64,000 nt of DNA from Brachionus manjavacas (lineage: Eukaryota > Rotifera > Eurotatoria > Ploima > Brachionidae), in the NCBI GenBank assembly GCA_019054805.1, contig JAHQIY010000006.1, positions 3,100,001-3,164,000 on the forward strand, in the 5' to 3' direction. Shown here piece by piece: positions 1,496 to 64,000 of this stretch; positions within the stretch are counted from its first letter, which is position 1, and each line of letters starts with the position of its first letter. The notes below the pieces were generated by a model, which saw nothing but the letters and a program-made list of their open reading frames with translations, did no database searches and had not been told where the DNA came from. Both the position numbers and the translations under genes were made by a program.

Positions 1496-1843
1496 TGTAT
1501 TATCCTCGTTGGATAATTATTAAAGATCAAACAAGCTTAGCTCAAATGTTTTTTAAATAAATATTGTAAAAAAAGTATCAAATCAAAATTTTTCTTTTAT
1601 GATTATTTGAACGCTTATTTATACAAAAAATTGATAAGCTTAGGAAAGTTTTTTTTTACATAGAAAGGAAACACTAGTCGAGCGAATGCTAGCTAGTGTT
1701 TCAAAGAAAATAAAATACAGTTGCACAGAGTGAGGAAGAAGAGATTAGAAAAATTGAATAAATATAAATACATCTACAAGTTTATAAAAAAATAAAGCTA
1801 GTAAAATTTAACTAAGTGATTGTAGCTAACCTGCGACATCACA
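1496..1843 (-). repeat. 3' LTR of the Gypsy-type element
   Basis: 348 bp, ending in TG...CA dinucleotides in either orientation. It pairs almost base for base with 6225-6572. In the element's orientation this is the 3' LTR, because the integrase end and the polypurine tract lie next to it. Confidence 0.93.
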
Positions 1844-1857
1844 TTTTCCCACCACTT
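1844..1857 (-). other. polypurine tract of LTR element
   Basis: On the minus strand the bases just before the 3' LTR read GTGGTGGGAAAA, a purine-rich run in the position where plus-strand DNA synthesis is primed. Confidence 0.6.
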
Positions 1858-1876
1858 TAAAACTAAACATTCTCTT

Positions 1877-3245
1877 CTACTTCTGCTGCTGTTTTGAAGC
1901 CAATCTTTCAGATGCTCGGACTGGCGGATTGATCTGCTTCCCCTTTTCTGCCTTGTTTGGACTACCAACTTTCTTCTTAGGCTTCTGGGCATTGTCCAAC
2001 TCTGACTCGTCCCTATTGGCTTGCTTGCTCCTTGGCCATGCCTGCTGTATCTCATCTGCATTCGTTGCATCTGGCTCAATCCATTCTGAGGTGTCAACGG
2101 TATCCTTTCCGCTCTGCTGTGACTGTACGTCACTCGTATAGGCTTTTTGACCCTCTGACTCACTAAACTGGTTTGCTGGTAATTTCTCTGGCTCCATCCT
2201 CCAATCTTCATCTATTTTGTCGCCATTGCGATAAAGCTTGAAGAAAGACGAGTTATGAACCACTGTCTTTGGCTTAAGGTGTTGGCGTGCAGCTCTGTCA
2301 TTCATGCTTATCACTCTAAACGGGTTTGGATCCCAAAGGGACATGCTTTGGCACCTTTTCTCTCTCTTCAAAAGGACTAGACTCCCAACCCCGAGGTCAT
2401 TTCTCCTAGCTCGCATTCGCTCGTCATACTCCCTTTTCATCTTTTCCTTTGCGTCTCTGTCTTTCGCTTGCGCTTGCCTGTGTATATTGCTCAGATACGA
2501 ATGGTTTGTTGGAGCTAAGTGTATTGCTGGGATTCCCACTGTGCGGCTGAAACCCATCAGTAGCACTGCTGGCGCTACACCTGTTGAAGGATTCGGGGTT
2601 ACGCGGTATGCTCCTAAGAACCGATTGAGTTCTATTTGCTTATTTACGCCAGATATTTCAACAATCTAAAGTACTTTTCCAAGCTTTTTCATAAAGCTCT
2701 CGGCTCCTCCATTTGCTCGCGGCCAATATGGAGTTATTTTGCGATGTTCGAAGCCCCACTGCCTTGCGAATTCGGTTAACTTATATGACTGGAACAGTGA
2801 CCCGTTGTCCGTTTTTAGAGTTTCAGGCACTCCGATGGTTGAGAATAGCTCTATGAGGACTGGTTCTACACTTTCAAAGGAGACCGTTCTAATGCCCTTG
2901 ACAACTGCCCATCTGGAGAACTCATCGTAGATGACAAACCAATATTAGCCGCCCGACATTGGACCAAAGAAATCAGCTGCTAATGATCGCCATTTTATCT
3001 TTTGTAACGTTCAACTCATGGTAAACCGCTTTGTATGTGTCAAGGTGTTGTGGTAGTTTCTGTACCTTTGAGCCTTTGCTGACCAATTCCCTTAACTGTT
3101 TGAGTTGTGGGTCTTGTTCGGTTGCCTGTACCACTTCAGCGTTAGTTAGTGCATACGGTTTAGATGCTTGGGCTATTGTGTTTACGTAACCCTCGAGGGT
3201 CTGCTCTTTAATTTTGTCCTTAAACTCTGATGGTGGCTTTTCCAC
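1877..3245 (-). pseudogene. integrase region of LTR element (broken)
   Basis: The minus-strand reading shows a zinc-finger/linker region (3245-2973), then an integrase core. The acidic triad is recognisable as YDEFSRW (about 2935), KTDNG (about 2800) and NGGAE (about 2705), matching the D,D-35-E pattern. The C-terminal part (2566-1877) is basic and contains the region linking core to chromatin-contact tail. A stop near 2666 separates core and tail, and further breaks lie around 2950. The last 120 residues are rich in K, E, S and Q. Not functional as read. Confidence 0.8.
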
Positions 3246-5124
3246 TGGATGCCTTGAGTTGTAGTCAGCTATGTTTGTCGCTCCAGGTCGATGGACTATT
3301 TTGTAGTCGAACTGACTCAGCCTCAGCGCAAGGCGCTAAATCCTTGCGGGTGGTCTTGATGCTGGATTGCTCAAGAGTGATTGTACCGCGCCATTATCAG
3401 TCACCAGAGTGAGAATTTTTCCGAAAAGATATAATGAGAAGCGTTCGCAGCCCCACACTGCGGCAAGTGCCTCCTTTTCACACTGACTGTTCTGCGCTCT
3501 ACATCAGTGAGTAGTCGAGATGTGCAGCACACGATAGCTCGCTCGCTTTCGTCATCCGGATTGACTTGGGTGATAACTGCGCTGAGTCCGACGGGACTGG
3601 CGTCTACAGGTAGCTCTGTCCGCCACTTTTTGTTGAAGTATGCCGTGCCTTTGGTTGAGATGAACTGCACTGTGCACAGGAAGCTTTTGAGTTACTTTGT
3701 GTTTGCCGGTTGAGAAGCATGACGAAGGGACTTGCATCTATCTTCAGTCGGAGCTATGCCCTTAGGTGTGAAGCGAAGACCGAAGAAATTCAGCTTGGTT
3801 CGGTAGAATTCACATTTTCCAAGATTTAGTGTGAAACCATTGTCCTCGAGACGCTTGAGCACCGCCATCAAATTTGTATGATGTTCCTTTTTTGACTTGC
3901 CAAACACCAAGATGTCATCTGTCATGTTCAGCTGCCCTGGCAGATCCTCGAGCATGACTCTTAGAGACTCTGTAAACACGATATACTCATATGAAGTCTC
4001 TTGTACCTTAAAAGCCCCATGTGTGTGGTGATAGTGGTAAAGTTTCGCGAATTTTCTTGAATCGAGAGTTGGTGGAATGCTTTGGTGATATCCAATTTTG
4101 AGAAGATCTGAGCTTCATTCACTAGATATATGAGGTCTTCGATTGTTTTCGTTGGATACCTCGTCCTCCTTATGGCCTTGTTTAGCTGCCTTGAGTCACA
4201 GGTTAGGCCTATGTCGAATTGGTGCTGCTTTCCCTGCTCGTTGGCCGCTACTGGCCTCGATGAACCGCACTTTGGATTTTTTACCGGTCGCTCGTACTTA
4301 GTTAGCCACCCACGGCGTGGGACGACATCTGTCGTCTACTCGTTCAAGAATGCCTTGCTGTACTTGTTTGAGTATTTCCTGTTTCACCTGATCTCTCATG
4401 TGGAATGGTAGTGGCCTTTGCGGTTGCCTGACTGGATTTACCTCTGGATCTACATCAATTTTGATCTCGAAGTTTTTAGCGCAACCTAGCTCCCCACTGA
4501 ACAGCTTTGGGCACTTGGCCGCCAATTCCTCAGGCTTAAGCTCGCGTTCTTCATGTTCAGCATGTTGGATGTCCTTTCCACTTACCGATTTCTCACTGAT
4601 TGCGTTTATAGTAACTATGCCTAGTTTGAGCGCTGTTTTACAACTAATAAGTCTTTCATGCCGACCCTTTACGACTATGACTTTGGCTTGTGTTGATCTT
4701 CTTGCATACTCCACAGTGGATTCGAACTCTCCAAGAGTTTCAATGGGTGATTCAGCTGTGAATGCATAGTATTTTTTAGAACATGTTGAGAGCTTCGGTT
4801 TTTGTAATGGCAGTTAATAAGTTCTTTCATCAATGACGTTAACAGCGGATCCTGTGTCTTCAAGAAATGAGATGGTTTGCCCTTGGAGTCGGATAATAAC
4901 TCTGACACTTTCATCCCTATCGAGCCGATCAGTTTCTGCTCTTCGTCTGATCTTACGGTGCTGATGCCGAAATCTAGACTCGCCTTGAGTGCCAGGTATT
5001 CTGCATACTCTGCATCATCAATGACTCTCTGTCCACTTTGCGTTTCACTTCTGGTCACACTATCCACTTCTTGTCCTTCTTTACTATTGGTAGTCACCTG
5101 CCTTACATGCTTTGTGTTACTCAC
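3246..5124 (-). pseudogene. protease / reverse transcriptase / RNase H region of LTR element (broken)
   Basis: Follows gag with a 4-base overlap at 5121-5124. The segment 4714-4298 matches the stretch leading into Gypsy-type RT, with conserved DPEVNPVRQPQRPLPFH and a PTPWV block. The segment 3979-3692 holds the RT palm, with MTDDILVFG in place of the usual YADDILVFG or IADDILVFG (about 3922-3896), and the following LNLGKCEF block. RNase H-like sequence lies at 3670-3401. At least three frame breaks separate these pieces. The two Asp residues of the RT active site remain, but the reading frame does not. Confidence 0.82.
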
Positions 5125-5975
5125 CTATCATCATAGTTATGCGATCTGTTCGCTTGATGCTGGCTCTGGTCGCTGCTGCTATGGAATTTAGTCATACCTG
5201 CTCGTTGAGTACCCCCTCGGCATACTCTCGCAAAATGACTCATGCGTCTGCAATTGGTGCATTCTTTGTCGATTGCTGAACATTTGGATCGCTCTGTGTG
5301 AGGTCTGCCTCCACAGTAGCTGCACTGTGCATGGCTGGATGTGTTGCTGTTTTGCCTTTGTTTTCTATGCTGCTTTGTGGATGCGTTTGCTATGGTTTCT
5401 CTGTTGTTATGTGTTGACATTTGCTGAGTTGCTCTGATCTTAGCCAAGCTCGCATTCAGACGGTCGTAGCCGATCGCGATTTCGACCACTTTCCCGAGGT
5501 TGAGCTCGTCCGTTGTACGCGCGCATTTGCTCTGCACTTCTTCCATTCCACAGCTGACCACGAATTGACGCTCTCACTCCGTTTCAAGTGCCGTACCGAA
5601 GTTGCAGTACCGAGCAAGTTCTCTTAGCCGTGTCACATACTCATTAATGCTCTCGTCTTTCCACCTTCTTGCATTCCGAAATTCACTTATTTCTGCATAC
5701 ACCGAACGTTTGGGAGAGAACTTGGCTGTTATATGCTTCTTTATGGCTGCTTAATCGTCTTTGTCTTTGTCTGCATGGCTCATGGCTGCATAGATGTTTC
5801 GCACATCTTGTCCCATGTGGAGCTTGAATTTCGCAAATATCTGTCCATCGTCTGTTAATTTCTCTGCTATATTGTAAAGATCGAACACCTCCACCCATTT
5901 ATCCCATCTAACTCCTATAGTGCTTATGTCTCCTTGGTATTGGAATTCTTGGAGCTGTGATAACTGACTTACCAT
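5121..5975 (-). pseudogene. gag-like ORF of LTR element, one in-frame stop
   Basis: A single minus-strand frame of about 284 codons starting at ATG 5975, interrupted once by TAA at 5753-5751. The N-terminal half is helical and capsid-like (RWDKWVEVFDLYNIAEKL). The C-terminal part carries two zinc knuckles: CSYCGGRPHTERSKC (CX2CX4HX5C, spacing one residue long) and CTNCRRMSHFARVC (canonical CX2CX4HX4C). Zinc knuckles of this kind bind the element's RNA. Confidence 0.85.
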
Positions 5976-6210
5976 TTTCTCTTTTGGCTTACTAAAGTTA
6001 AGTGCTGTTTGGCTTATTCTCGCTTTTTTGTCTATTGCTTCCTGCTTATGAGAGGTATCGGCTTCTTCTGCTTCTGTCTGGTCGGATCCTGTTATTTGCT
6101 TGGCGTCAGATGCTATGCTTGTAGGAACAGTTTCTCTAGGATGCTTTGCTACTACTGCTAATAGGCTTATTACTTAGTTGTGTTTTGCTTGCTACTTTTG
6201 ATTCAAATTT

Positions 6211-27949: not shown

Positions 27950-29872
27950 TCATGCTGAAACAGCAGCAGGCGTTGTTTGGCCAGTGGGCTGTGGCGAATT
28001 GGACGCGCGTGTCATGTCCGAGCTGGGCGATGAGTCGCCACGAGCGCTCAGCATCGACGGCTGCTGCGACAAGCTCTGCGACAAACTTTGCTGAACGGCG
28101 GCGGCCGCAGCGATTATGTGGTACGGGTGGTGGAGCAGCGATGTCAAGTTCTGGTCGTTGCTGAGAGGCGCTGGCGGCGGCGGCGGCGTCGACGTTGAGG
28201 CCTGCTGAGCAGACAAGTGCTGGCCGTGCGCGTACACGTACTCGTTCGGCTGATTTTGACTGACGTAGAACATGGGCGAGGTGCTGGGGTTGCGCGATGC
28301 TCGCTGATGCTGCGGACTGTTGGTCAAGCTGTTTGCCGAGTTGTTCGAGCTGGTGCTGGACGAAGACGACGAGGACGACGACGACGACGACGACTCTTGT
28401 TTGATGGAGGGCGGCGGCGTCAACTGGTTCGAGTAGTAGGCCAAACTTTGCTGCACGCCGTTCGTCGACATCACGTACTGAGAGTTTTGGTGCACGGGCG
28501 TACTCGATTGAGCCTTGTTGGCCGCGTACAGCTGGTTGTACAACGCTTGACTGGCAGTTGAATTGGGCGTCGTTTGAAGGGCGCTGGTCGGCGTCTTGGC
28601 CTGGCCGACTATTTGGTGATAGTTTGATTGGGCCTGGTGTGACGGCTGCTGCTGTTGTTGCTGTTGCTGTTGTTGGTGCTGTTGTTGGTGCTGTTGTTGC
28701 TGGTGGTGGATGTGTGTGGTGTAGGGGGACTCGGGCGGCCACGAGTTCTGGTAGGCGGCCGAGTGATGATGCAGGTGGTGCTGCTGCGAGTTGAGCATGT
28801 GTGGCGTTTGGCTTGTGTAGGCCTGGCTGTGTTGGAATTGGGCGGCGGCGGGAAAGGCGTGCGGCGAGCTCTGATGTGGTAGGTGGTGGTGGCCGTGCTG
28901 CGAAATGGAGTGGGCCGGCGGCGCCGAATGATGCACCAAGTGGCCTTGTTGCTGCAGATAGTGTTGATGGTTGGCGGCGAATTGATGGCTGGAATGGGAG
29001 TTGGTGATGGCGGCCAAGTGGTGATGCAGGCCGTGTTGGTTCAGTTGGCCGATGGACGCGTTTGTGTGCGAGGTGGCGGTGAGCGAGCCGATTTTTTCCT
29101 TTTTCAGTATGGACTTGTTTTTGCGCCTCGGCCTGTACTTGTAGTCCGGATGCTCTTTCATGTGCACGGCTCTGAGCCGCTTGGCCTCGTCGATGTACGG
29201 ACGCTTTTCGTCCTCGTTGAGCATTTTCCACTCGGCGCCCAAACGCTTGCTTATCTCCGAGTTGTGCATCTTGGGGTTTTCCTGCGCCATTTGACGCCGC
29301 TTGCTCCTCGACCAGACCATGAAAGCGTTCATGGGTCTCTTCACCCGCTCCAAGTCCACACTTGACACTGACTTGGCCGCTGAACTTCGGCCGATCGGCT
29401 GAGCGCGACACGACCCACCTGCACTCGCGCCCACGCTGCCCATCGACGAGTCGTTCGGCGACGGCGACGACGACACCAGTTCGCCGCTCTCGTGCTCTTC
29501 GTCGTCGTCCTCGTTCATCTCGTCGTCGTCCTCGTCCTGCTCCTCGTTCAGCTTACTGCCCTGAACGCCCACCACCGGCTCGTAGTGTCCCTCGCTCGGG
29601 TACAAGTACTGCTGCTGCTGCTGCTGTTGTTGCTGAAGATGATGGTGGTGGTGGAAGTGATGGCTGGTGATTTGATGCTGGTTGAAGTGAGCCTGTGCGT
29701 ACGGCGTCGGCTGGGCGGCAAAGTTTTGCGCCTGCGAGTAATTCTGCAGCATCATTTGGCCCATTAGTGGACTCTGGTTGAGGTGGTGGTGGTGGTTGTG
29801 GTGGTTGTGGTCCATGTCGCCACTCACTGCTTGCTCTCCTCCGCCGAACATCGCCACCAAATTGCTTACCAT
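27950..29872 (-). CDS. SoxB-group HMG-box transcription factor
   Basis: Single minus-strand exon from ATG 29872, 640 aa. The open frame extends 36 bp further upstream but starts with TTG. The HMG box lies at about residues 175-250: [38 protein letters not shown] and [20 protein letters not shown], then [12 protein letters not shown]. This is the group B signature (Sox1/2/3, Sox14/21). Around the box are long low-complexity tracts: His runs, Gln runs (near residues 80-88 and 410-425), an acidic stretch before the box and a Ser run after. The C-terminal SPMFYVSQ and the Ser/Pro/Gln-rich region would be the activation domain. It binds CWTTGTW-like DNA and acts in neural and stem-cell fate by family. 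B1 rather than B2 is likely but not certain. The protein is about twice the length of vertebrate Sox2 because of the repeats. The coding region has far higher GC than its surroundings. Confidence 0.95.
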
Positions 29873-30177
29873 TTTGCTTCTTCTTTTTTTTTTTCTGCTA
29901 CGTAACAAAATTTGTCGAACAATACAATTGACTTTTTCTTTGTTTTGTTATTTTTTTTTTTTGTTCAATTTTTAACAAGCTTAAAAAAAAAAACAAAAAA
30001 ATTAACAAAAAAGTCAACAAATTTTATTTTAAAATTGATCAAGAGATTGAACAAGAAGAAGAAAAGAATGTTGTTGGAAATTGTTGAGAGAAGAAGAACA
30101 AAATAGAAGAAAATTCAACAAGTTTTAAATCGTTTGCTAATATGCATGTGTGTTTGTGTGTGTGTGTGTGTAATTAA
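29873..30177 (-). other. SoxB 5' flank / possible 5' UTR acceptor
   Basis: Minus strand: a possible splice acceptor, GTAGCAG, lies about 20 bp before the ATG, followed by eleven A. That would allow joining to a distal first exon. A (GT)n microsatellite lies at about 30147-30170. Confidence 0.4.
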
Positions 30178-52754: not shown

Positions 52755-53108
52755 ATGAGCACTAATCCAGTTCAAGTCAATATTGAATACTGGTAAGAAT
52801 AATTATATATTTGATAATTTTTAATTAAATTTTTTTTTAATTTAAGTGGCGCATGAGGCTACTCCTCTCGCTTTAGGCAACTTCAGTATGAGATAATACA
52901 AGAGGTTTCTAATGCGAGAGTCGAGGGCCGAGTTGGCCGTCGATCGTCCTTCGAAGTGACAATTAATGGCAAACAAGTCTTTAGCAAATTGGCACAAAAT
53001 GGATTTCCGGTATTCGAGAAGATTGTCGAAGAGGTAATCAAGGCATCAAAAGGAATTGAAGTCAGTGAAGTCACCGAGCTTCAGTCAAGCCAATGTGTCA
53101 TTTCATAA
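52755..53108 (+). CDS. selenoprotein W, copy 1 (TGA = Sec)
   Basis: Two exons, 52755-52792 and 52847-53108, 99 aa with Sec. Exon 1 encodes MSTNPVQVNIEY and two bases of Cys. Exon 2 completes CGAUGYSSRFRQLQ, so the redox motif is C13-x-x-U16 with TGA at 52854-52856. Downstream blocks are typical of the SelW/Rdx thioredoxin-like fold: EVSNARVEGRVGRRSSFEV, TINGKQVFSKL. The C-terminal tail (TELQSSQCVIS) is longer than in the other copies. A SECIS-like element follows within 70 bp. By family, a small cytosolic glutathione-dependent antioxidant. It is transcribed away from CEP83, with starts only 330 bp apart. Confidence 0.92.
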
Positions 53109-53154
53109 TTTTTTTTTTCCTAAAAAATTGAGAAATGTTTGATAATTAAATTTA

Positions 53155-53225
53155 CATCATTTGCTATGACCAGTGTCACTAAAAATTTGAAAAAATTGGC
53201 GATACTGCGACTGAGACTTAGGTCT
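53155..53225 (+). promoter_or_regulatory. SECIS-like element of SelW copy 1
   Basis: ATGA (53166-53169), then CAGTGTC pairing with GATACTG (53201-53207) over 7 bp, an apical loop with AAAAA, and CGAC carrying the 3' GA of the kink-turn quartet. This fits the eukaryotic SECIS consensus ATGA...AA...GA in the 3' UTR. Confidence 0.7.
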
Positions 53226-54057
53226 TTAAATCTTTATTTTTTTTTATCAAAAAATTTCTTGATTTTTTTATTTTTTGATCATATTCGTGTTATTTAGTTA
53301 AATAAATTTAAAAATTTTTTTCTATCATTTCATTTATCATTTCTACATAGAGTGTAATTGCTCTAAGAAAAATTAAAATTAAACGACATATTTTACTTAG
53401 ACACTACGTCTGAATTGATTTTTACAACTAAAATATATTTTGAATTTTTATAAAATTTACTGATAGATATTTTGTCATGTGATTTCTTTTAAACTGACTC
53501 TAGAAAAAATTATTAGTATCGTTCACCTTTTAAATGTCATGTATAATTTTAAGTTGATTTTTATGAAAAAAATATTCAGAAATCGTCTTAATATTTTGAA
53601 GATAATTTTGATAATAAAAATGTAATTTTAAACTAAGAATTGAAAAAATTTTCTAATTTACTCAACTAAAAAGTTAAAATATTTCAAAAAATGACTAATT
53701 CTAGAATAAAAATTATAATGATTTTTTAACATGGATTTCAACTCAATTATTTTTATTTGGTAAATTGGTTCCAACATAATTTTTTAGGATTTAAAATTAA
53801 TGTAAAATTTTTTCGATTGTTTTTAGTAATTTTTATTTTTGATAGTAATATATACTAAATAGTTTAAAGTTTTGATATTTTCTTGAATTTAATCAAATTG
53901 ACTTCGAATCGTTCGTAATTTAAAAAAATCCATTTTTATTATGAATAATTTGTATAAGAAATCTACGACTAATAAAGAAAGCTTTGTATAACTGGAGTTA
54001 AAACTTTTCTTTGTTTATAAAAAATTTCTATTTTTGATTGAATTAAATTAGATAATA
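53226..54057. other. AT-rich spacer between SelW copy 1 and erlin
   Basis: No gene. AATTAAATTAG ending at 54051 is acceptor-like, 6 bp before the erlin start. Confidence 0.5.
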
Positions 54058-55537
54058 ATGAGCTTAGCGGGTATCGTAGTCACTTCAACAGCTGTCTTGG
54101 CTTTTTTAATAAGCATGTCTATTCACAAAATAGATGAAGGTAGTTGAATTAAAATAAATTAAAAAAAATTAATTTAAAAATTTTTAGGACATATTGGCGT
54201 TTATTACAGGGTATTATTAAAATAGTTAAAATTTTATTTTGTCAAAATAAGAAAATTTAAGGGCGGTGCCTTATTAAAATCAACATCAGGTCCAGGATTT
54301 CATTTAATGATCCCTTTTATTACTTCTTTTAAATCGGTTCAAGTAAAAACTTATCTAGGTAAATTGAGTCATACATAAGTGTAAGCAAATTCTTTAGACA
54401 ACTATGCAAACAGATGAAGTGAAGAATATACCTTGTGGCACTAGGTAATACATCTATTTTAGAAACAAAACTAATCAATTTATATTCAAGTGGTGGTGTG
54501 GTCATTTACTTTGACAAAATAGAAGTAGTCAACTTTTTATCCCCAGATCATGGTTTTTATTTTAATTAAAAGCGTTTGACCCTTTTACCTATTTTCCTTA
54601 AGTTTATGAAACTGTAAAAAAATTTACGGCCGACTATGACAAACCTTTAATTTTCAATAAAATACATCATGAGCTGAATCAGTTTTGCAGCATGCACACT
54701 TTACAAGAAGTCTACATTGATCTTTTTTGTAGGCACAATAATTTTATCTTAATTTAAATTTAAATATTTTTTAAGCTGATATTGATGAGCATTTGAAGAA
54801 CGCTTTACAAACCGATTTAACCACTTTAGCACCCGGTCTCTTCGTTCAAGCAGTTCGAGTAACTAAGCCGAAAATTCCCGAGCAAATTAGGAAAAATTAT
54901 GAATTAATGTGTTTTATAATACAAATTTCTTTACTGGAATTTTTATTAATAAGTTTTTTTTGTAAAGGGAAGGTGAAAAGACCAAGCTTCTGATTTCGGT
55001 TCAACACCAAAAAGTGGTTGAAAAAGAAGCTGAAACTGAACGAAAAAGAGCAATAATAGGTTAATAGAAATAAACAGTCTAAAATATTGTTTTTCAAATT
55101 TTCTTTAGAGGCTGAGAAAATGGCTCAAGTTTCCAAGATTCAATTTGAACAGAAAATAATGGAAAAAGAATCGGACAAAAAAATTTCTGATATTGAAGGT
55201 AAGTGTTTAACGAGTCGACTAGGTGAAAATCTTTTTTACTTTTAGTTCAGATGCAAGTAAATAGGGACAAATCTTTGGCTGATGCCGCATTCTATAAAGT
55301 AAAGAAAGAAATCGAAGCTAATAAAGTAATCTTTGATTCTAATATAAAAAGCCTCAATTTTAAACCAAAATTTAATTTTAGGCTAAATTGACCCCTGAAT
55401 ATTTGGAAATGATAAAATATGAAGCACTAGCAAAAAATACAAAGATTTATTTCGGAAATTCAATACCTAATATGTTTACGGATAACTTTTTTAGTTCTTC
55501 TAAAACTCCGATTCAAGAAGATCAAAAAAAGAAATAA
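54058..55537 (+). CDS. erlin (SPFH-domain ER lipid-raft protein)
   Basis: Eleven small exons: 54058-54139, 54188-54210, 54262-54342, 54398-54444, 54491-54552, 54603-54728, 54776-54908, 54968-55059, 55109-55198, 55246-55325, 55382-55537, 323 aa. The N-terminal membrane anchor ([17 protein letters not shown]) is followed by the SPFH/prohibitin domain: [60 protein letters not shown]. After it come a coiled coil ([18 protein letters not shown]) and the assembly region, where [11 protein letters not shown] matches erlin IYFG..IP.MF. Erlin1/2 rings recognise activated IP3 receptors for ERAD and restrain SREBP. One gene here likely stands for both vertebrate paralogues. Exon 2 is only 23 bp. Confidence 0.93.
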
Positions 55538-56370
55538 ATTTAACTCTTTGAATTAATTCAATAAATCATTCTGTAGAACAAATTCGAATTACAAGTCTGG
55601 TAAATTTTAGACCTAAATTTTTTTGCTTTTATCAAAAGTTGTCTTAAATATTTAATAAAAATATTAATAATTATCTCTAATTTTTAACTCAGAAATTTAA
55701 ATGCTAATTTTCTATTTTTTTTTGTTAAATTTTTCAATTTATTCTAAACGAAATTCAACTTTAAAAAATTATCTTAAGTATCAAACCAGACTTGTTTTTA
55801 AGTAACAAGTCTTAAGTCAAGTCAAGCCAATGACTTAAAATTTTTTTTTAATGAAATATATTTTTAAATAAACCATAATCATAAAATTATATTGGTCAGA
55901 GTTATCTGCGTTTATCCATAAGGTACAGTATTCAGACAGAAAATATATTTCGTCTAAAAACGCAAATTTTTTAAATAGTTGATACATTTATTAAAGAAAT
56001 AGAATTTAATTTTTTAACATTTTATGATTTTTGTGATTGTTAATTATAAAAAAAATTTAGTTCAAGTCATAACTTTGACTTGAATTTTTGTGACTAAGAC
56101 TTAAAACTGTGAATTATAAACAAGTCTGGATCAAACTAGTGTCACTGTCTGTTAGCTCCAGTTGCTTATTAAAAATTGTTGGCTTTTTTTTTCAATTTAA
56201 TAAATTAAAGCACATTGACTTTGCTATTTTTTATAATGGTTAAAAAAAATTAAAAAAAGAACATTGTTCAGTTTTGAAATAAAAGACAAAATAATTTCAC
56301 CGTAGAATAAAAACAAAATTTTTCAAAATTTTCAAAATTATAGAGTGTATAAAATTTTCTACAGCTTAAA
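55538..56370. other. AT-rich spacer
   Basis: No gene. TTTTCTACAG (ending 56364) lies 6 bp before the next start codon and looks like a splice acceptor, possibly for trans-splicing. Confidence 0.5.
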
Positions 56371-56697
56371 ATGTTATTTTTTTGTCCAAATTGTGGAAAT
56401 GTTTTAATAGTCGAAGAAGGACCAAACTGTTACAGATTTGCGTGTAACACGTGTCCATTTATCAATAACATAAATGATAAAATGGCAAATAGAAAATACT
56501 GCAAATTAAAGGAAATAGATGATGTGCTGGGGGGTGCGGCAGCATGGGAAAATGTCGACTCAACTGAGATTACTTGCGAAGAATGTGGTCATAAAAGAGC
56601 TTATTTCATGCAAATTCAGACTAGATCTGCTGACGAACCGATGACAACGTTTTACAAATGTTGTAACCCTCAATGCGGAAAACGTTGGCGTGACTAA
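56371..56697 (+). CDS. POLR3K: RNA polymerase III subunit RPC11/RPC10 (POLR3K)
   Basis: Intronless, 108 aa, exactly the family size. N-terminal zinc ribbon: CPNCG (residues 5-9) and CNTC. The C-terminal TFIIS-like ribbon has CEECGHKRAYF, QIQTRSADEPMTTFYKC and CCNPQCGKRWRD. The RSADEP loop holds the acidic pair that enters the polymerase active site and stimulates RNA cleavage. The subunit is required for Pol III termination and reinitiation. It lies downstream of erlin on the same strand, 833 bp away, with its own acceptor-like leader. Confidence 0.97.
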   Translation: MLFFCPNCGNVLIVEEGPNCYRFACNTCPFINNINDKMANRKYCKLKEIDDVLGGAAAWENVDSTEITCEECGHKRAYFMQIQTRSADEPMTTFYKCCNPQCGKRWRD

Positions 56698-57070
56698 ATG
56701 CTTTCAATATTTTATAAAATAAAAATATTTAAATTTTTTTTTTTTAAATTCCTTAAATTCAGAGTAAATAGTATTAGATTTTAAATAAATTTTAAATTTA
56801 ATTTAAAGAGCTAAGTTATTTTAAGTTTTTGAATCCAAAAAGAACAAAATTTTTTTTTTGGAAGATTTAATTTTAGAAAGTGAAGAGATCTGGATTTTAA
56901 AGATAATAACTAGGGCTGAACGAATTTTAAATTCTATTTACGACGTGTTTTATTTATAAAACATGATGATAATAATTTAAATAATTTTTATTTAAATGAA
57001 AGAATTTTTTAAGAATTAAACCAAATCATTTTTAACTAAATTTCAAGACGTAACCAAAAAAATTTTAAAA
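56698..57070. other. AT-rich spacer
   Basis: No gene. POLR3K polyadenylation signal AATAAA is likely near 56720. Confidence 0.45.
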
Positions 57071-57376
57071 ATGAGTCATTTGGAAATTACAGTAGAATAT
57101 TGGTAAGCCAATTTTGAGCATTAACAATTAAGCATTTTTTACATCTATCTTTTTAGTTCTTCATGAGGATATCGTCCTCGCTTCAGAGAGCTTCAAAGAA
57201 TTATTCTAAAAGAAGTTTCAGAGGCGAGAGTGATCGGCTCCACTGGACGACCATCATCTTTTGAAGTTAAAATAAATGGAAAATTGATTTTCAGCAAATT
57301 GAAAACAGGTGTGTTTCCTAATTTAGAGGAGCTAGCTGAACAAATTGCTATCATGATACAACAAAAAGAGATTTAA
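57071..57376 (+). CDS. selenoprotein W, copy 2 (TGA = Sec)
   Basis: Two exons, 57071-57102 and 57157-57376, 83 aa. MSHLEITVEY then CSSUGYRPRFRELQ, with TGA at 57164-57166 (C11-x-x-U14). The core EVSEARVIGSTGRPSSFEV and INGKLIFSKLKTGVFPNLEE is intact. This copy has SS between Cys and Sec, where the others have GA or GG. The intron lies after the second base of the Cys codon, as in all six. A well-paired SECIS-like element follows. Confidence 0.92.
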
Positions 57377-57429
57377 ATATTTCAAAAAAATATTAAGAGA
57401 AATTTATTGATAAATTTTGAGGATGTATT

Positions 57430-57485
57430 ATGGCTAATGACTGTTACTATTAAAAATTCAAAGTCAATAGTGATATGAAAAATTC
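57430..57485 (+). promoter_or_regulatory. SECIS-like element of SelW copy 2
   Basis: ATGA (57437-57440), CTGTTACTATT pairing with AATAGTGATA over about 10 positions (including G-T wobbles), apical AAAAA, then TGAA (57476-57479) as the 3' quartet half. The clearest of the four SECIS candidates. Confidence 0.75.
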
Positions 57486-58299
57486 AAAATATTCCAAAAA
57501 TTTATTCAAATGAATATTTCTTTTTTTTTTACTTGTTCATATTTTTAAAATAAAAATGAAAAGAATATTTTTAATTTTATATAATTAAGAACTTAAAATA
57601 TGTTAGAAGAAATCGGGTTAGAAAATGATAAGATATTAAAATAAAATTGCAATTAAGATATGATAAATGAACTTTTTATTTCAACCGATTAAAGATTTTT
57701 ATTGCTTGTTCAAAAAATAAAATTAGACTCTTAATTTTAAAAAAGCCTTATATCATCTTATTAATGCTTTGCTTAAAAAGTCTAGTAATTTTTTTTTTTA
57801 ATTTTTAAAAATCCAATTTTAATATTTATTATTTTAATAAATTTTTTATTTAACCAATGACAATTGCAAAGATTTATATATTATTACAACAATAAGCAAT
57901 TAATTATTTATATAATATAGATTTATATCTATATATATTTATATTTATAGATTATATCTGTATTATCTGTAAGATTATACAGATTTATACATTGCAAAGA
58001 TGAAGATTTATTATTATAATTTATATATTATTTATATATTATTTATATATTATTAAGATTTATTAATTATTTATATTTATTTATGTAGATTTAGCCTTTT
58101 TTTCTCAAAACGGTAAATTTTAAATAGACTAAAAAATTTAGGTTATTTGATCAGTTTTCTACTAAAAGAATTATGTTCAAACATAATTAATATGTGTATA
58201 AAAAGCATTATAAAAAGGCTTTAAATTTGGTTTAAATTTATTTTAGTATTTATTTCGAGAAAAATTTAGAAGCAATTTCATCAAAACTAGAAAAAAAAA
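57486..58299. other. AT-rich spacer with TATA-type satellite-like tract
   Basis: No gene. At about 57880-58075 there is a simple repeat of ATTTATAT/ATTATTTATATATT units. Confidence 0.55.
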
Positions 58300-58597
58300 A
58301 TGACTCAAGTTCAAGTCCAAATCGAATATTGGTAAATACAGTTAAAAACTAATTTAATGAGTTTTTTTTAAATTTTTTAATTTAAAGTGGTGCATGAGGT
58401 TACGGAACTCGCTTTCGCGAGCTTCGGCAGACAATTTTAGCTGAAGTTCCGAATGCGCAGGTAACAGGATCGGTTGGTCGTTCAGCATCATTTGAGGTCA
58501 CTGTTAATGGAAATTTGGTTTATAGCAAGCTAAAAAAAGAAGCTTTCCGAATTTCGATGATATTGCAATGCAGGTCACCGAAATTGCCGGAAAATAG
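58300..58597 (+). CDS. selenoprotein W, copy 3 (TGA = Sec), frameshifted near the C-terminus
   Basis: Exon 1 58300-58331, exon 2 from 58388. MTQVQVQIEY then CGAUGYGTRFRELR, with TGA at 58395-58397. The core EVPNAQVTGSVGRSASFEV and NGNLVYSKL is intact. In the run of seven A at 58532-58538 one base is missing relative to the family: after it the expected F-P-N-F-D-D tail is encoded in the next frame and ends at TAG 58595-58597. Read without correction, the frame runs past that stop to TAA 58659-58661. The SECIS-like element is still present, so the break is young or an assembly error. Confidence 0.82.
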
Positions 58598-58679
58598 ATC
58601 CTCAGATCTATTCAAAATTGAAAAAAAAAGCTAAAAAAAAAAAAAATATTTTTCATTTTAAATTTCCTGTTATTTTTAA

Positions 58680-58730
58680 TTGATGACTGCTGCCGATGAA
58701 AATAATTTAAATCATAGCAACACGAAAATT
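58680..58730 (+). promoter_or_regulatory. SECIS-like element of SelW copy 3
   Basis: ATGA (58683-58686), TGCTGCCGATGA pairing imperfectly with TCATAGCAACA, apical AAAA..., then CGAA (58723-58726). Confidence 0.6.
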
Positions 58731-59104
58731 TTTTTAATAATAACAGTCTTTTAGATAAGTTAAATTTTTTTTTTTTATTTTTGGTTTGTATTAGTTTTGA
58801 CTTAATAAATTTTTATCTAAATCTTGAATAAATGATTTAAAATTATTTTAAAATTAAATACAGGTCACTTTGATTTTTGATCGAATTTTTTTATCAATTT
58901 TTTCTGAGTATAAAATCTTTATTAGAAACTCTGATAAAAAAAATTGTGATATTTAGTATATTTTTTATTTTGCTTGTTCACAATGATGTAGTAAAAAAAA
59001 AACCTCTTAAATCGGTAATTTAAGTTTTAAAAATTACTAGGCGTTTTTTAAATTTGAACAACTTATTCGAAAAAAATATTTGAAATTTATTTTGAAATAA
59101 CAAG

Positions 59105-59401
59105 ATGAAAAAAATTAACGTTTTGATCGAGTATTGGTAAATTAGAATTTTTTTTATATTTAAATGATTTAGACTTTTTAATAGTGGTGGATGAAGTTTT
59201 GCGTCCCGCTTCAGGGAAGTTCAAAGAGCTATCTTTAAGCAAGTACCTGATGCGATTGTTATCGGCAACGTTGGTCGTTGGTCATCTTTTGAGGTAACAG
59301 TTAATGGCAAGCTCATTTTTAGCATGTTGGAGACTGGCGAATTTCCTAATCGTGATTTTATAGCCACAGAAGTTGTCAAAATTAAAAATGAAAGCGAATA
59401 A
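59105..59401 (+). CDS. selenoprotein W, copy 4 (TGA = Sec)
   Basis: Two exons, 59105-59136 and 59185-59401, 82 aa. MKKINVLIEY then CGGUSFASRFREVQ, with TGA at 59192-59194. Ser replaces the Gly after Sec, and the base after TGA is A instead of G, a weaker context in principle. The core QVPDAIVIGNVGRWSSFEV and NGKLIFSMLETGEFPNRD is complete, with Trp in place of Arg/Pro/Ser and Met in place of Lys in two otherwise steady positions. It is the most divergent member of the array. Confidence 0.9.
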
Positions 59402-59436
59402 ATATTTTAAATCAAAATAAATATCACCATAAAAAT

Positions 59437-59490
59437 TTGCTAATGACTGTTGGTTTAGATAAATTTTTAATACTCAACAACATGATAAAA
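59437..59490 (+). promoter_or_regulatory. SECIS-like element of SelW copy 4
   Basis: ATGA (59443-59446), TGTTG pairing with CAACA, an AT-rich middle with AAATTTTT, then ATGAT (59482-59486) giving the 3' GA. Confidence 0.6.
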
Positions 59491-59845
59491 AAATTTTTTT
59501 GGTTTTTTTTATTTTCGATATAATCACAAATAAAATTTATTCATATTTTTTTCTATTATCCAATTCTTTTGTTTCAAATTCATTTTTTCCAATACTGGAA
59601 AATGTCAAGATATTTTAAGTATCAAGTAAGTTTTTAATACTTTTAGGTTTAATTTAGTAATTAGAGGTTTTTCACTCGAAATTTTTAATATAAATGTAAC
59701 TATGGAATTTTTAAACGCTATTTTAAAATTCATTAATCATGATGAATTTCTCTTTCTCATCGATTTCTGCTGAAAATTCTTTGTAAAAAAGGTTAAGGTA
59801 TAAAAGAAAATATTTTATTCAGAAAAAAACAAAACTAAATTGAGA

Positions 59846-60147
59846 ATGAGTAAAGTTGAAGTTTTTATTGAATATTGGTAATTATAGAAAATGAAAATTT
59901 CTAAAACTAAATTACTGATTTTATTTTTAGTGGTGGGTGAGGCTACGGTTATCGCTTCAGAGAGCTTCAAAGAGCCATACTCCAAGAAGCATCTGCTGCG
60001 AAAGTTTCCGGAGGTGTTGGCCGACCGTCATCGTTCGAAGTCAGTATCAATGGAAAGTTGATCTACAGTAAACTCAGGAACGGAAGCTTTCCAGATAAAA
60101 GCGCCATTGTTATGGAAGTGGCCAAAGCCGTGAGAGATAGTCAATAA
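59846..60147 (+). CDS. selenoprotein W, copy 5 (TGA = Sec)
   Basis: Two exons, 59846-59877 and 59931-60147, 82 aa. MSKVEVFIEY then CGGUGYGYRFRELQ, with TGA at 59938-59940. The core EASAAKVSGGVGRPSSFEV and INGKLIYSKLRNGSFPDKS is intact and the end is KAVRDSQ. It is the closest relative of copy 6 in protein, intron and 3' flank. No canonical SECIS could be folded by eye; a block conserved with copy 6 (60167-60225) is the likely place. Confidence 0.92.
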
Positions 60148-60159
60148 AAATATTCTAAA

Positions 60160-60235
60160 CATTGTATTTTCATGATAAATTAATCGGTTAAATTAAAGCA
60201 AATGATTTCTATCAAGATAAATTATTAAGAATTTT
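60160..60235 (+). promoter_or_regulatory. 3' block conserved between SelW copies 5 and 6 (possible SECIS)
   Basis: ATAAATTAATCG...AAATGATTTCTATCAAGATAAAT is shared almost exactly with the 3' flank of copy 6 on the other strand (62560-62635). It contains ATGA, but I could not find a partner arm with a 3' GA. Confidence 0.4.
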
Positions 60236-60699
60236 TGTTAGGATAATTCAATTTTAATTAAGCCGTTATTTATTTGTGAAAATAACTATTCAAATATTTA
60301 GAACATTATTTTTTAGTTAAATAAAAAAATTAAATTATATTATTTTTTTATAATGTTTTGGGTTTAAAAAAATTTTGATTTTTTAATACTTTTAATTTTC
60401 TTGCAATAAAATACCTTAAACTCGCGTTGTGGGCTCTAAGAGTAAAAAAACAAATCAGACCTTTTTTCTTTTAGAGCTAATTACATAGTTTCTTTGTTAT
60501 AACAATTAAAATTACATTAGCGACAAAATACCCTTAATTTGGAATATTTTCCAATAATAAAGCCTAAATTTAGATTTTACTCTAACAAAAAAATGGTCTT
60601 TACACTCAAAAAAAATTTTAGAGTTAATTTAGAAATGGCAAGTTTTTTTTCTATCTTACACTTTTAAAAATAACTTGGTGATGTTAAATAAAGACATAT

Positions 60700-62350
60700 G
60701 GTGCTAGAATGGGATTATAAATTATGCTTGAACGCGAAGAAAACTGAATACTCATCAAATATCTAAATTATTTAAAAGCAAATATCTTAGGCATTAAGGA
60801 TGAATTGGCAAATCAGGACGAGGCTAAAATTTTTTAAACAATGGACGCCAGTCAAATGAATGATGTATTTACAGAAGAACTGAATTCGATATCAATGCGC
60901 AATTCCCCAAATAAAATCTTAAAAAAACTTATTAAAAAAACAAAACAAAGCCGTTAAGTTGCTTAATACTGAATTAAGAAGAAATTAAGCAAATGGTTGA
61001 ATTAAAAAATAAGCTCTGGTAAAGTTTCGAGGAGACAAATTTTCAAAGTAATCTTTTGTGTTTATCATATTAAAAGTCTAGAAATGAATGCTTGAGAGCA
61101 ATCAAAAAAGTTGTCCATGACTTCAAGCTGTTCTTAACAAAACAGGCAACAAAAAATAAACCGAAATTTATTTGTAATCACATAAAAAAAATTAGAGGTC
61201 AGCCTGATGCTATTGAAGTGGAGCAAAAACTAATTACAGAGCGTAATAAGATAGTAAATGTAAATATAAATGTATTTAATAAATGATTATTTTAGATCGA
61301 TTTTCAACTTGCCGATTTGAAATGAGAGCGAAATTTATTTTCCTAAAAGAACAGCCAATTTTCTCAAATTGGACCTGGTCATCATCTTTAAGTCAAACGA
61401 AATTTAGGGACATCTTTCCACCTTAAACCCTGAAAAATCTTCTGTACCTGATACAATGCACCCTTTGCTACTTAAGATTGCTATAAAGAATTCTAATTCG
61501 CGTTATCATTGATTAATATAGAATCGTTTAATGAGGATGAACCACCAAAATTATGGAAGAAAGCAAATGTATCTCCTATACATAAAAGTGGATAAAAAAT
61601 GCTTCACATAGAGGAAATGACAGATACTTGGTCAAAAAATCTAAACCTGGTCAAATTCAAAGCTATATATCCGATGCATTGCTTTACATAGGTTACATTA
61701 CCTAGGCTAGGTAAGAGAAAAGAAAAAGCCTAATCTATTATTATTTCCTAGAAGAGATAACAGAAGAAAATGATTTGGTTATTTTTATTACAAATGATTT
61801 AAAATGAAATAAACAATTTAAAACTGTAGCAGCTATGAAAGCTTAGTGAATACTGGATCTAATAAGAAATTTTTTTAAGAATTTTAGACGAGAAACATTA
61901 AGACCTCTCTATGCATTACTTGTGAGACAACATGTGGAGTATGCAGTAGGAACCTGAAGCCGGTATTTAAAAACAGACATTAAAATTCTTGATAAAGTAA
62001 AAAGTATGGCGACAAAATTCAAACATACAATATTTTAAATAGTTTTGAAAAAGTGTCGTTAAAATAAAAAAGACCACATGACAATAGACTGGTCCGAGAA
62101 ATAAATCGCAGAGGATCATTGAGATATAGACTCTTGACAAATCGCTGTGTAAAATTCTGGAATATTTAATCAGTGAATGCAATTAATGCGCAAATAATTA
62201 ATAGCTTCAAAGCTGTCATTAACAATGAAGTCTTTTGGATGGTGAAAAGCAAAGTCTGCCGAAGCCTTACAGCTAATAAGGCTAAATACTTTTGAGCGTT
62301 AGAGTAGATAGAAATATCTATACTGGAGATATCACTTCTATTACTCACTA
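60700..62350 (+). mobile_element. dead LINE (CR1/Jockey-type)
   Basis: Plus-strand frames, all broken, run in order from a linker region (60841-61290) to RT: FNEDEPPKLWKKANVSPIHK (about 61518-61590, RT fingers), RPLYALLVRQHVEYAVGT (about 61903-61960; family pattern RP.LEYA...W), a KSMATKFKH block, RPHDNRLVREINRRGSLRYR, then INSFKAVINN (about 62195-62230). The 3' end has a short CTA/ACT microsatellite. It separates the inverted SelW copies 5 and 6. Confidence 0.75.
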
Positions 62351-62559
62351 CTACTACTAAATGTAAGCATTTTTTTAAAGTAAATGTTAATGGGGATGAA
62401 ATTAACTTATTTAAATTTTTAAATTTTTTGGTATTCTATTGTTTATTTTGATAAATAAAAAATCAGTTTTTAAAAAATCTTTTTATTGAATTAAAATTTT
62501 TATTCAATTAATATTTAAACTATAATTTTCGAAAATAAAGAACGATTTTATTTAAATTT

Positions 62560-62635
62560 TAATTATTCTAACAAAATTTTGAAAATATTTATCTTGATAG
62601 AAATCATTGGCTTAAAATTGATCGATTAATTTATT
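62560..62635 (-). promoter_or_regulatory. 3' block of SelW copy 6 matching copy 5 (possible SECIS)
   Basis: Minus-strand counterpart of the block at 60160-60235; the core CCAATGATTTCTATCAAGAT is conserved. Confidence 0.4.
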
Positions 62636-62665
62636 TCGAAATTTCAAAGATTTTTATATTTTTAT

Positions 62666-62964
62666 TTAACTTGCTTGGACAACCTTGTTCACCTCTCTAA
62701 TAATAGCGCCATTATTTGGAAAACTTCGGGTCCTAAGTTTACTATAGATTAACTTTCCATTCATACTGACTTCAAACGAAGACGATCGGCCAATATGTCC
62801 TGAAACTTTCGCACCAGAAACTTCTCTGCGTATGGCTGTTTGAAGTTCTCTGAAGCGACTACCGTAGCCTCACCCACCACTAAAAATAAAATCAGCAATT
62901 AAGTATTAGAAATTTTCATTTTCAATAAATACCAATATTCAATAAAAATGTCAACTTTACTCAT
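62666..62964 (-). CDS. selenoprotein W, copy 6 (TGA = Sec), inverted
   Basis: Two exons on the minus strand, 62964-62933 and 62879-62666, 81 aa. MSKVDIFIEY then CGGUGYGSRFRELQ, with TGA at 62872-62870. The core EVSGAKVSGHIGRSSSFEV and MNGKLIYSKLRTRSFPNNG is intact, and the last residues are KVVQAS. The intron and flanks match copy 5, so this is a recent inverted duplicate. It is the only copy on the minus strand. Confidence 0.92.
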
Positions 62965-64000
62965 TTGAAATTTTAGTTCTAATTTTTTTTTGAAATAAAT
63001 ATATTTTTCTTTTTTTATATCAAATATTTTTCTTTTAATCGCGAATGTTCGACTTAAAATGCATGATGTATGTTGGAATTCTTTAAAAACGTCCTAAAAA
63101 CAATAGTTACAGTTGCTAAACGAGTAAATTAAGGTGAGATTCAATTTGCTAATTTTTATCAAGATTCTGTGACGGCACAGTCGGAATGACGACAACCACC
63201 TTTTCGTAATTCATAAAATCACAGAATTCTCAGTCGTTTAACAACTGTAATTATTGTTTTTAGAAAGTTTTTGAAAAATTCCAACATGCGTCATGCATTT
63301 TAAATCGAACCTTTCTAAATGAACTAATAATGAATAAGTGAAGTTTTTTTTTGATCGTTTCTTTTTCCTTTTAGGTTTTTCATGTTTTTTTTTTTATACA
63401 AGAATTAGAGCTGAAATCGAATATTTTATTTAATTGAGAATTTGAATATATTTGATTAAAATTAAAATAATATTCGAAGCTTTAAAGAAAATTTTAAAAA
63501 ATTTAGCTGATTTAAAAATAAAAAAAATATTGATTTGATTTAGAAAAAAACAATCGATCGAAAATTGATTATTAAAATTATTTAAATTTATTAATCGAAA
63601 ACAAAATTTGATAGTTTTCTTTGTTTGCTTTTCAAAAATCAAAAGGACTTTTTTCTTAGAAGGTTCCAAAATTATTTTTTTCCAAAATTTTTAGACCATT
63701 TTACCATTTTCCAATTTTTTTAATAACATGGAAAATTTGATTGATTTGTAAATTTTAAAATAATTGTTATAGAAATTTTGCCACAATAATTCAAATGAAA
63801 AATAATCTTTAAAATTTGATTATTTAATTTTGGTGTTGTTAAGTTCATTTTGTATCACCCCCTCCAGCAGACCCCGATCTTCTGGGGCCTTGCTGGATTT
63901 CTTTAAATATGGATGTTTTTTCTTTTTTTTTTCAAATGCTTTTGAAGCTTTATTTTAAATAAATACTTAGACTTGTCTTCATTTTTTGAATTACGATCGG
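62965..64000. other. AT-rich flank with an inverted repeat and a GC-rich hairpin
   Basis: No gene. 63035-63130 and 63220-63310 are inverted relatives of each other: CATGATGTATGTTGGAATT against AATTCCAACATGCGTCATGC-type arms, and CAATAGTTACAGTTG against CAACTGTAATTATTG, forming a foldback of about 280 bp. A GC-rich hairpin lies at 63864-63896. Confidence 0.5.

Follow-up and report, generated by a model that had tools for sequence, protein, structure and literature searches.

A probable local array of MIEN1-like selenoprotein genes in a rotifer genome, with a possible variant of the SECIS element

Are neighbouring genes that all carry an in-frame TGA at one locus of an animal genome selenoprotein genes, and if so, of which family and by what signal are they decoded? 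This question is raised by a 64-kb stretch of the rotifer Brachionus manjavacas (contig JAHQIY010000006.1, here C6; C6:3100001-3164000), referred to below as the window, in which an earlier reading (the original prediction) had described a cluster of six selenoprotein W (SelW) genes with TGA at the selenocysteine (Sec) position. In this study, the six window genes, W1 to W6, were analysed together with W7 and W8, two copies just past the window edge, and the whole assembly (114.2 Mb, 61 contigs) was searched; coordinates without a contig prefix are those of the window. The locus is very probably a local array of small selenoprotein genes with a thioredoxin fold, belonging to the MIEN1/Rdx12/SelW2 branch, with eight members in the assembly and six in the window. 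Protein family, TGA at the redox (Sec) position, a shared intron, canonical Sec insertion sequence (SECIS) elements in W1-W4 and the Sec machinery of the genome were all established by computation.

The window array consists of six two-exon genes of the Rdx family, five on the plus strand and one on the minus strand. All six proteins matched Pfam PF10262 (Rdx) at 55.5-69.6 bits (cut-off 22.6) and NCBIfam TIGR02174 (SelT/SelW/SelH) at 53.6-66.1 bits (cut-off 34.2), and their membership of the Rdx (SelT/SelW/SelH) family is far beyond chance. The six gene starts of the original prediction were exact, and the two-exon structures were recovered. Every intron is of the GT-AG type and 48-56 nt long; exon 1 ends in TG and exon 2 starts with T, so the first Cys codon of the CxxU motif is split by the intron. 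An in-frame TGA stands at the conserved redox position in 6/6 window genes and in 8/8 copies of the assembly. The motifs of W1 to W6 read, in order, CGAU, CSSU, CGAU, CGGU, CGGU and CGGU, with the flanking residues GA, SS and GG that had been predicted, and the stop codon is TAA in W1, W2, W4, W5 and W6. The description as a cluster of six holds for the window and falls short for the assembly, where two more copies past the edge bring the array to eight genes in about 16.5 kb.

Canonical SECIS elements (AUGA, apical AA, NGAN) were found in the 3' untranslated regions (3'UTRs) of all four genes W1-W4. The scan was built from the SECIS consensus and was run over 40 kb on both strands as a guard count. 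Nine anchors reached -4 kcal/mol, five of them in the array and four elsewhere; the five array anchors belong to W1-W4 and the duplicated copy of the W4 element, and all five anchors that start with ATGAC lie inside the array.

The genome also holds the machinery for Sec insertion, the absence of which had been named as grounds for rejecting the original prediction. A tRNA-Sec was found at 77 bits in an Rfam search that gave 38 matches, one of them over the cut-off (prokaryote controls matched in 14/14, five over the cut-off), and ARAGORN called it tRNA-SeC with anticodon tca. SepSecS and eEFSec (domain III) were found in the assembly, as were two SBP2-type genes (C4:7293067 and C20:850897), whose L7Ae domains match SBP2 7zjw at 138 and 147 bits and are identical to each other at 95 of 118 residues. 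The known SBP2/SBP2L duplication is placed in vertebrates by a 2009 SBP2 phylogeny, according to the portion available (PMC2746813), and the rotifer pair looks like a separate duplication. Among the selenoproteins, SPS2 has TGA in the motif KGUG and a SECIS 51 nt past its stop, and in Sep15 TGA is accompanied by a SECIS of -18.5 kcal/mol. The SelT gene and the two GPX genes detected in this genome have Cys, not Sec. Sec decoding in this genome is thus well supported. The original interpretation was partly borne out overall; its reading of the six as selenoprotein genes that all keep TGA was supported.

The identity as SelW was not upheld. By bit score, the top solved relative of all six window proteins is MIEN1 (C17orf37; Protein Data Bank (PDB) 2ljk), with 58.9, 47.3, 40 (first 61 residues), 47, 50.6 and 51 bits for W1 to W6, compared with 27.2, 24.9, 29, 17.2, 27.6 and 27.1 bits for SelW (PDB 2npb). 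SelW is therefore 11-32 bits below MIEN1 for each of the six; it ranks second among solved Rdx proteins in 5/6 and third for W2. The array thus appears nearer to MIEN1/Rdx12, the SelW2 branch, than to SelW1, a placement that the tree cannot prove because MIEN1 and SelW sit on long branches there. The array shares with MIEN1/Rdx12/C17orf37 the Rdx fold family and the CxxC/CxxU motif, and W1 ends in CVIS, a CaaX-like tail also present in the Brachionus plicatilis protein P0032, at the position of the MIEN1 prenylation site CVIL (PMC3527542, as far as its available text goes). Human MIEN1 differs in having Cys at the motif, where TGA stands here, and in its CaaX tail, which W2-W6 do not have. According to the available part of PMC3316567, fish and frog have SelW2 as a selenoprotein, to which mammalian Rdx12 is a remote homolog with Cys; the likeness of the array to the Sec-containing SelW2 is one of description. 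With SelW1 (2npb) the array shares the Rdx family and CxxU, and exon 1 of vertebrate SelW likewise ends just upstream of CxxU, as the same part of PMC3316567 describes.

A Pfam Rdx search of the assembly (E up to 0.1) gave 10 matches, the eight array copies and one each on contigs C43 and C17, and no other SelW or SelH-type gene. The match at C17:1325594 is a SelT-like gene whose spliced motif was read as CFSC (Cys, not Sec) and in which the array's pattern recurs, the first Cys codon being interrupted by an intron as TG|T. On C43, the match is a Cys-type Rdx protein among genes that by eye look bacterial, and it is a probable contaminant.

Relatives of the array were sought with W5 alone, which gave no proteins, and with the alignment of the six proteins, which gave 89. 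Three of the 89 are B. plicatilis entries named migration and invasion enhancer 1. The tree was built from 29 of the 89 relatives plus eight further rows; its bootstrap had not settled, and only the grouping of W5 with W6 and three ortholog pairs are claimed from it, namely those of W1 (support 100/99), W4 (100/99) and W3 (90/87) with B. plicatilis entries. From EIIQ to the end, 67 of 72 residues agree between W1 and P0032 (counted by eye). Because each of W1, W3 and W4 pairs with a B. plicatilis ortholog, these three genes would predate their split from their B. plicatilis counterparts, and the present genome would be that of a Brachionus-type rotifer close to, though distinct from, the source of the B. 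plicatilis record. In P0002 just the residues flanking the Sec codon are missing; P0009 and P0032 are without the motif. This is as would be expected, judging from the protein entries alone, when annotation avoids a TGA; that annotation mishandles such genes had been anticipated in the original prediction and fits these three entries. P0002 and P0009 are each assigned to a 14,921-bp contig, which makes it probable that W3 and W4 are adjacent in B. plicatilis too.

Of the 89 relatives, 36 fit the motif pattern, and at the Sec place all 36 show W and none shows Cys; W there would be TGA read as Trp by a gene caller. The other 53 fall outside the pattern, many of them starting downstream of the motif; among them P0080 has CxxC, and P0063 and P0067 have CxxW before NY. 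Retention of Sec looks ordinary in this branch and appears to be the norm among the relatives, and by itself it thus does not demonstrate the dosage selection that had been read from it. The features of the array are listed in Table 1.

Table 1. Coordinates of the array genes, their SECIS or SECIS-like elements and the segmental duplication (window positions unless prefixed by C6)
Feature	Position	Strand	Details
W1	52755..53108	+	exons 52755-52792, 52847-53108; TGA (Sec) 52854-52856; 99 aa; C-terminus CVIS (CaaX-like)
W1 SECIS	53166..53211	+	canonical (ATGAC ... CGAC), 57 nt past stop
W2	57071..57376	+	exons 57071-57102, 57157-57376; TGA 57164-57166; 83 aa
W2 SECIS	57437..57479	+	canonical (ATGAC ... 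TGAA), 60 nt past stop
W3	58300..58597	+	exons 58300-58331, 58388-58597; TGA 58395-58397; original-frame end TAG 58595-58597
W3 SECIS	58683..58726	+	canonical (ATGAC ... CGAA), 85 nt past original-frame stop
W4	59105..59401	+	exons 59105-59136, 59185-59401; TGA 59192-59194; 82 aa
W4 SECIS	59443..59486	+	canonical (ATGAC ... TGAT), 41 nt past stop
W5	59846..60147	+	exons 59846-59877, 59931-60147; TGA 59938-59940; 82 aa
W5 SECIS-like hairpin	60202..60247	+	non-canonical (ATGAT ... TAAT), 54 nt past stop
W6	62666..62964	-	exons 62964-62933, 62879-62666; TGA 62872-62870; 81 aa
W6 SECIS-like hairpin	62562..62607	-	non-canonical (ATGAT ... TAAT), 58 nt past stop
5.16-kb segmental duplication, first copy	59355..64000, on to 64512 beyond window	+	
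5.16-kb segmental duplication, second copy	C6:3165653-3170808		contains W7, W8 and the W4 tail with its SECIS

Several points weigh against an array of working MIEN1-branch selenoprotein genes. Candidates had already been spotted by eye when the SECIS scan was devised, and the line at -4 kcal/mol was set afterwards; Rfam at its gathering score found no SECIS in the window, and its two hits at E up to 10 were at chance level and belonged to other families. In the tree, the six window proteins are not joined into a single clade and the backbone is open, and the CaaX tail of MIEN1 is absent from 5/6 proteins, W3 not being assessable in its own frame. An A-run at 58532-58538 throws W3 itself out of frame, and as assembled the gene does not encode the full domain. 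Its other-frame tail is nearly identical to the tail of the B. plicatilis relative P0009; since P0009 runs on to this tail, the frame lesion either arose recently or reflects a mistake in the assembly, and W3 would work only if the slip is an error or a rare allele. Finally, the NGAN quartet is absent from the W5/W6 element, and no canonical SECIS follows either gene within 2.5 kb.

This last point extends to the four copies W5-W8, none of which has a canonical SECIS within 600 nt (0/4), and equal Sec decoding of all six window genes therefore cannot be assumed. The W5 and W6 elements both fold to a SECIS shape, composed of an 11-step helix with one U.U, an apical AAA and an outer helix, with UAAU in place of NGAN. 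Within borders that were drawn after the W5/W6 alignment had been seen, the hairpin arms are identical at 34 of 35 positions, compared with 106 of 155 in the rest of the aligned 3'UTR (loop 5/11; Fisher P = 1.1e-4). When a two-arm window was slid along the alignment, identity peaked on the element, at a start offset of 54 or 55. Because the arms are conserved and the peak falls on the element, the comparison suggests that the hairpin structure was under selection after the G had become A. The substitutions between the duplication copies leave the hairpin untouched, so W7 and W8 share it. A relaxed hairpin scan of 40 kb on both strands gave 21 anchors, with the W5 and W7 elements included and those of W6 and W8 left out; when the W6 hairpin is cut to the length of the relaxed scan, its first pair opens.

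There is about an even chance that W5-W8 are decaying, the 3' G having been lost before W5 and W6 separated, so that UGA would terminate and only a 13-residue peptide would be made. The lack of NGAN at the element and of a canonical SECIS at the distances given above fits such decay, and so do reports that mutations of the G.A pairs abolish binding of L30 to SECIS (PMC3706390, in the text accessible) and that SECIS-less copies in other invertebrate selenoprotein clusters were called inactive (PMC3473315, in the portion available). The ratio dN/dS between W5 and W6 past the TGA, 0.42 (NG86) or 0.53 (YN00), is also fairly high. Nevertheless, both frames stay open past the TGA, where 42 base differences in 67 codons (11, 13 and 18 by codon position) produce 21 amino-acid changes as against about 27 under neutral placement (P about 0.014, or 0.017-0.019 conditional on the absence of stops and 0.003-0.004 for both together). 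The coding comparison gives modest support to translation past the TGA. The W5 and W6 introns are identical at 48 of 53 positions, which hints at gene conversion and weakens this support. Decay also sits poorly with an element of which both arms are conserved and the loop is not, and with an L7Ae-bound k-turn that tolerates A.A at the matching place. In that case, the Kt-23 k-turn of Thelohania solenopsae, A stands at position 2n for the G of the second sheared pair and L7Ae still binds (PMC3985660, as described in the section available). L7Ae is the protein family of SBP2, and the SECIS 3' quartet was mapped onto the k-turn in the present analysis; Kt-23 differs in being ribosomal RNA, not SECIS, and SECIS goes unmentioned in PMC3985660.

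The evidence on W5-W8 is therefore split between weak decoding via an A.A quartet and recent decay, and the chance that they are working, decoded genes is put at somewhat below even. A more specific proposal is tentative: W5-W8 may be selenoprotein genes that use a SECIS class with A.A for the A.G pair (UGAU/UAAU), under selection since before the W5/W6 split, to which the second SBP2-type gene may be tuned, and the array would then be divided between two SECIS/SBP2 specificities.

With W5 as query, the assembly gave eight matches, confined to the part of C6 from 3152.8 to 3169.2 kb, and W7 and W8 lie at C6:3166225 (+) and C6:3168965 (-). Both belong to the second copy of the segmental duplication, whose copies are 99.2% identical and stand 24 substitutions and 16 indel columns apart. 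W5 and W7 have the same 249 coding bases throughout, and W8 differs from W6 by one silent base. One substitution falls before 62861 and 23 after it (0 over 59431-62860; 23 over 62861-64458), which suggests that the first 3.4 kb was homogenised by recent gene conversion or that the copies are part-collapsed. It is unlikely that W7 and W8 are an assembly artefact, such as two haplotypes placed in tandem, and not true extra genes. The identity over 5.16 kb and the identical coding bases of W5 and W7 would fit such an artefact, whereas the differences between the copies, with 23 of the 24 substitutions from 62861 onwards, speak against it, and the second copy begins within W4 after about 1.1 kb of non-repeat sequence, as is unlikely from stacked haplotypes. 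Between W5 and W6, at 60600-62400, a degenerate stretch resembles retroelement remains by eye. An imperfect palindrome just upstream of W6 and W8, at 63044-63313 and C6:3169339-3169608, spans about 270 bp and is self-complementary at about 71-72%.

It is improbable that the genes are equivalent copies of selenoprotein W arrayed for dosage. In favour of this are the six Rdx frames that stay open across their TGA and the recent duplication; however, only 39-47 of about 80 residues are common pairwise among W1, W2, W4 and W5/W6, the best relative is MIEN1 and not SelW, the CaaX tail is confined to W1, the SECIS elements of W5-W8 differ, and W3 is out of frame. Values of dN/dS among W1, W2, W4 and W5 or W6 were saturated (dS 1.3 or more, or undefined) and were left unused. 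That this organism uses TGA as an ordinary sense codon, an objection foreseen in the original prediction and favoured only by frames that stay open across TGA, can practically be dismissed, because none of 19 matches to five other families (SepSecS, eEFSec, L7Ae, GPX and MsrB) has an in-frame TGA while the cluster, SPS2 and Sep15 have it, a SoxB-like open reading frame in the window ends at TGA, and a tRNA-Sec with the matching anticodon is present.

In the array of MIEN1-branch selenoprotein genes favoured here, SBP2 bound to the SECIS would recruit eEFSec and Sec-tRNA, and UGA would be read as Sec to give a CxxU redox protein. This ordinary SECIS/SBP2 decoding would serve W1, W2 and W4, and W3 too if its slip is an error, and W5-W8 would be, or until lately would have been, decoded through a SECIS with A replacing G in the 3' quartet. 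W1 may be held at membranes through prenylation of CVIS, and the tail-less W2-W8 would be soluble. The array would have grown by DNA duplication, ancient for W1, W3 and W4 and recent for W7/W8.

Elsewhere in the window, the SoxB-like HMG-box frame occupies 27950-29947 (-), with 665 codons and long His, Gln and Ser runs; the GC-rich island in which it lies reaches 57% over 28-30 kb. At 1798-6173 (-), a broken Ty3/gypsy-like element with integrase and reverse transcriptase-like frames was recognised by eye; its GC content is 45-47% amid an AT-rich genome.

For comparison, the six species columns of PMC3473315, in its available part, give 1-3 SelW genes, and the largest selenoprotein cluster in that part is one of six Trichoplax deiodinase genes with three SECIS. 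The Trichoplax cluster is likewise a one-family local array on both strands with SECIS in some members only; it differs in its protein family, and in the present array the members without a canonical SECIS keep a SECIS-shaped hairpin. Among the titles returned by a literature search on rotifer/Brachionus selenoproteins, no rotifer selenoproteome study was found. The array adds a new and larger case to a known kind and may include a new SECIS variant. It explains B. plicatilis database entries that are without the Sec codon. It also provides a natural experiment on the SECIS core rule, with four canonical elements and four neighbours with a G-to-A change in the quartet in one genome that has two SBP2-type genes, and a comparison of their decoding would tell whether animals strictly need the second sheared G.A pair.

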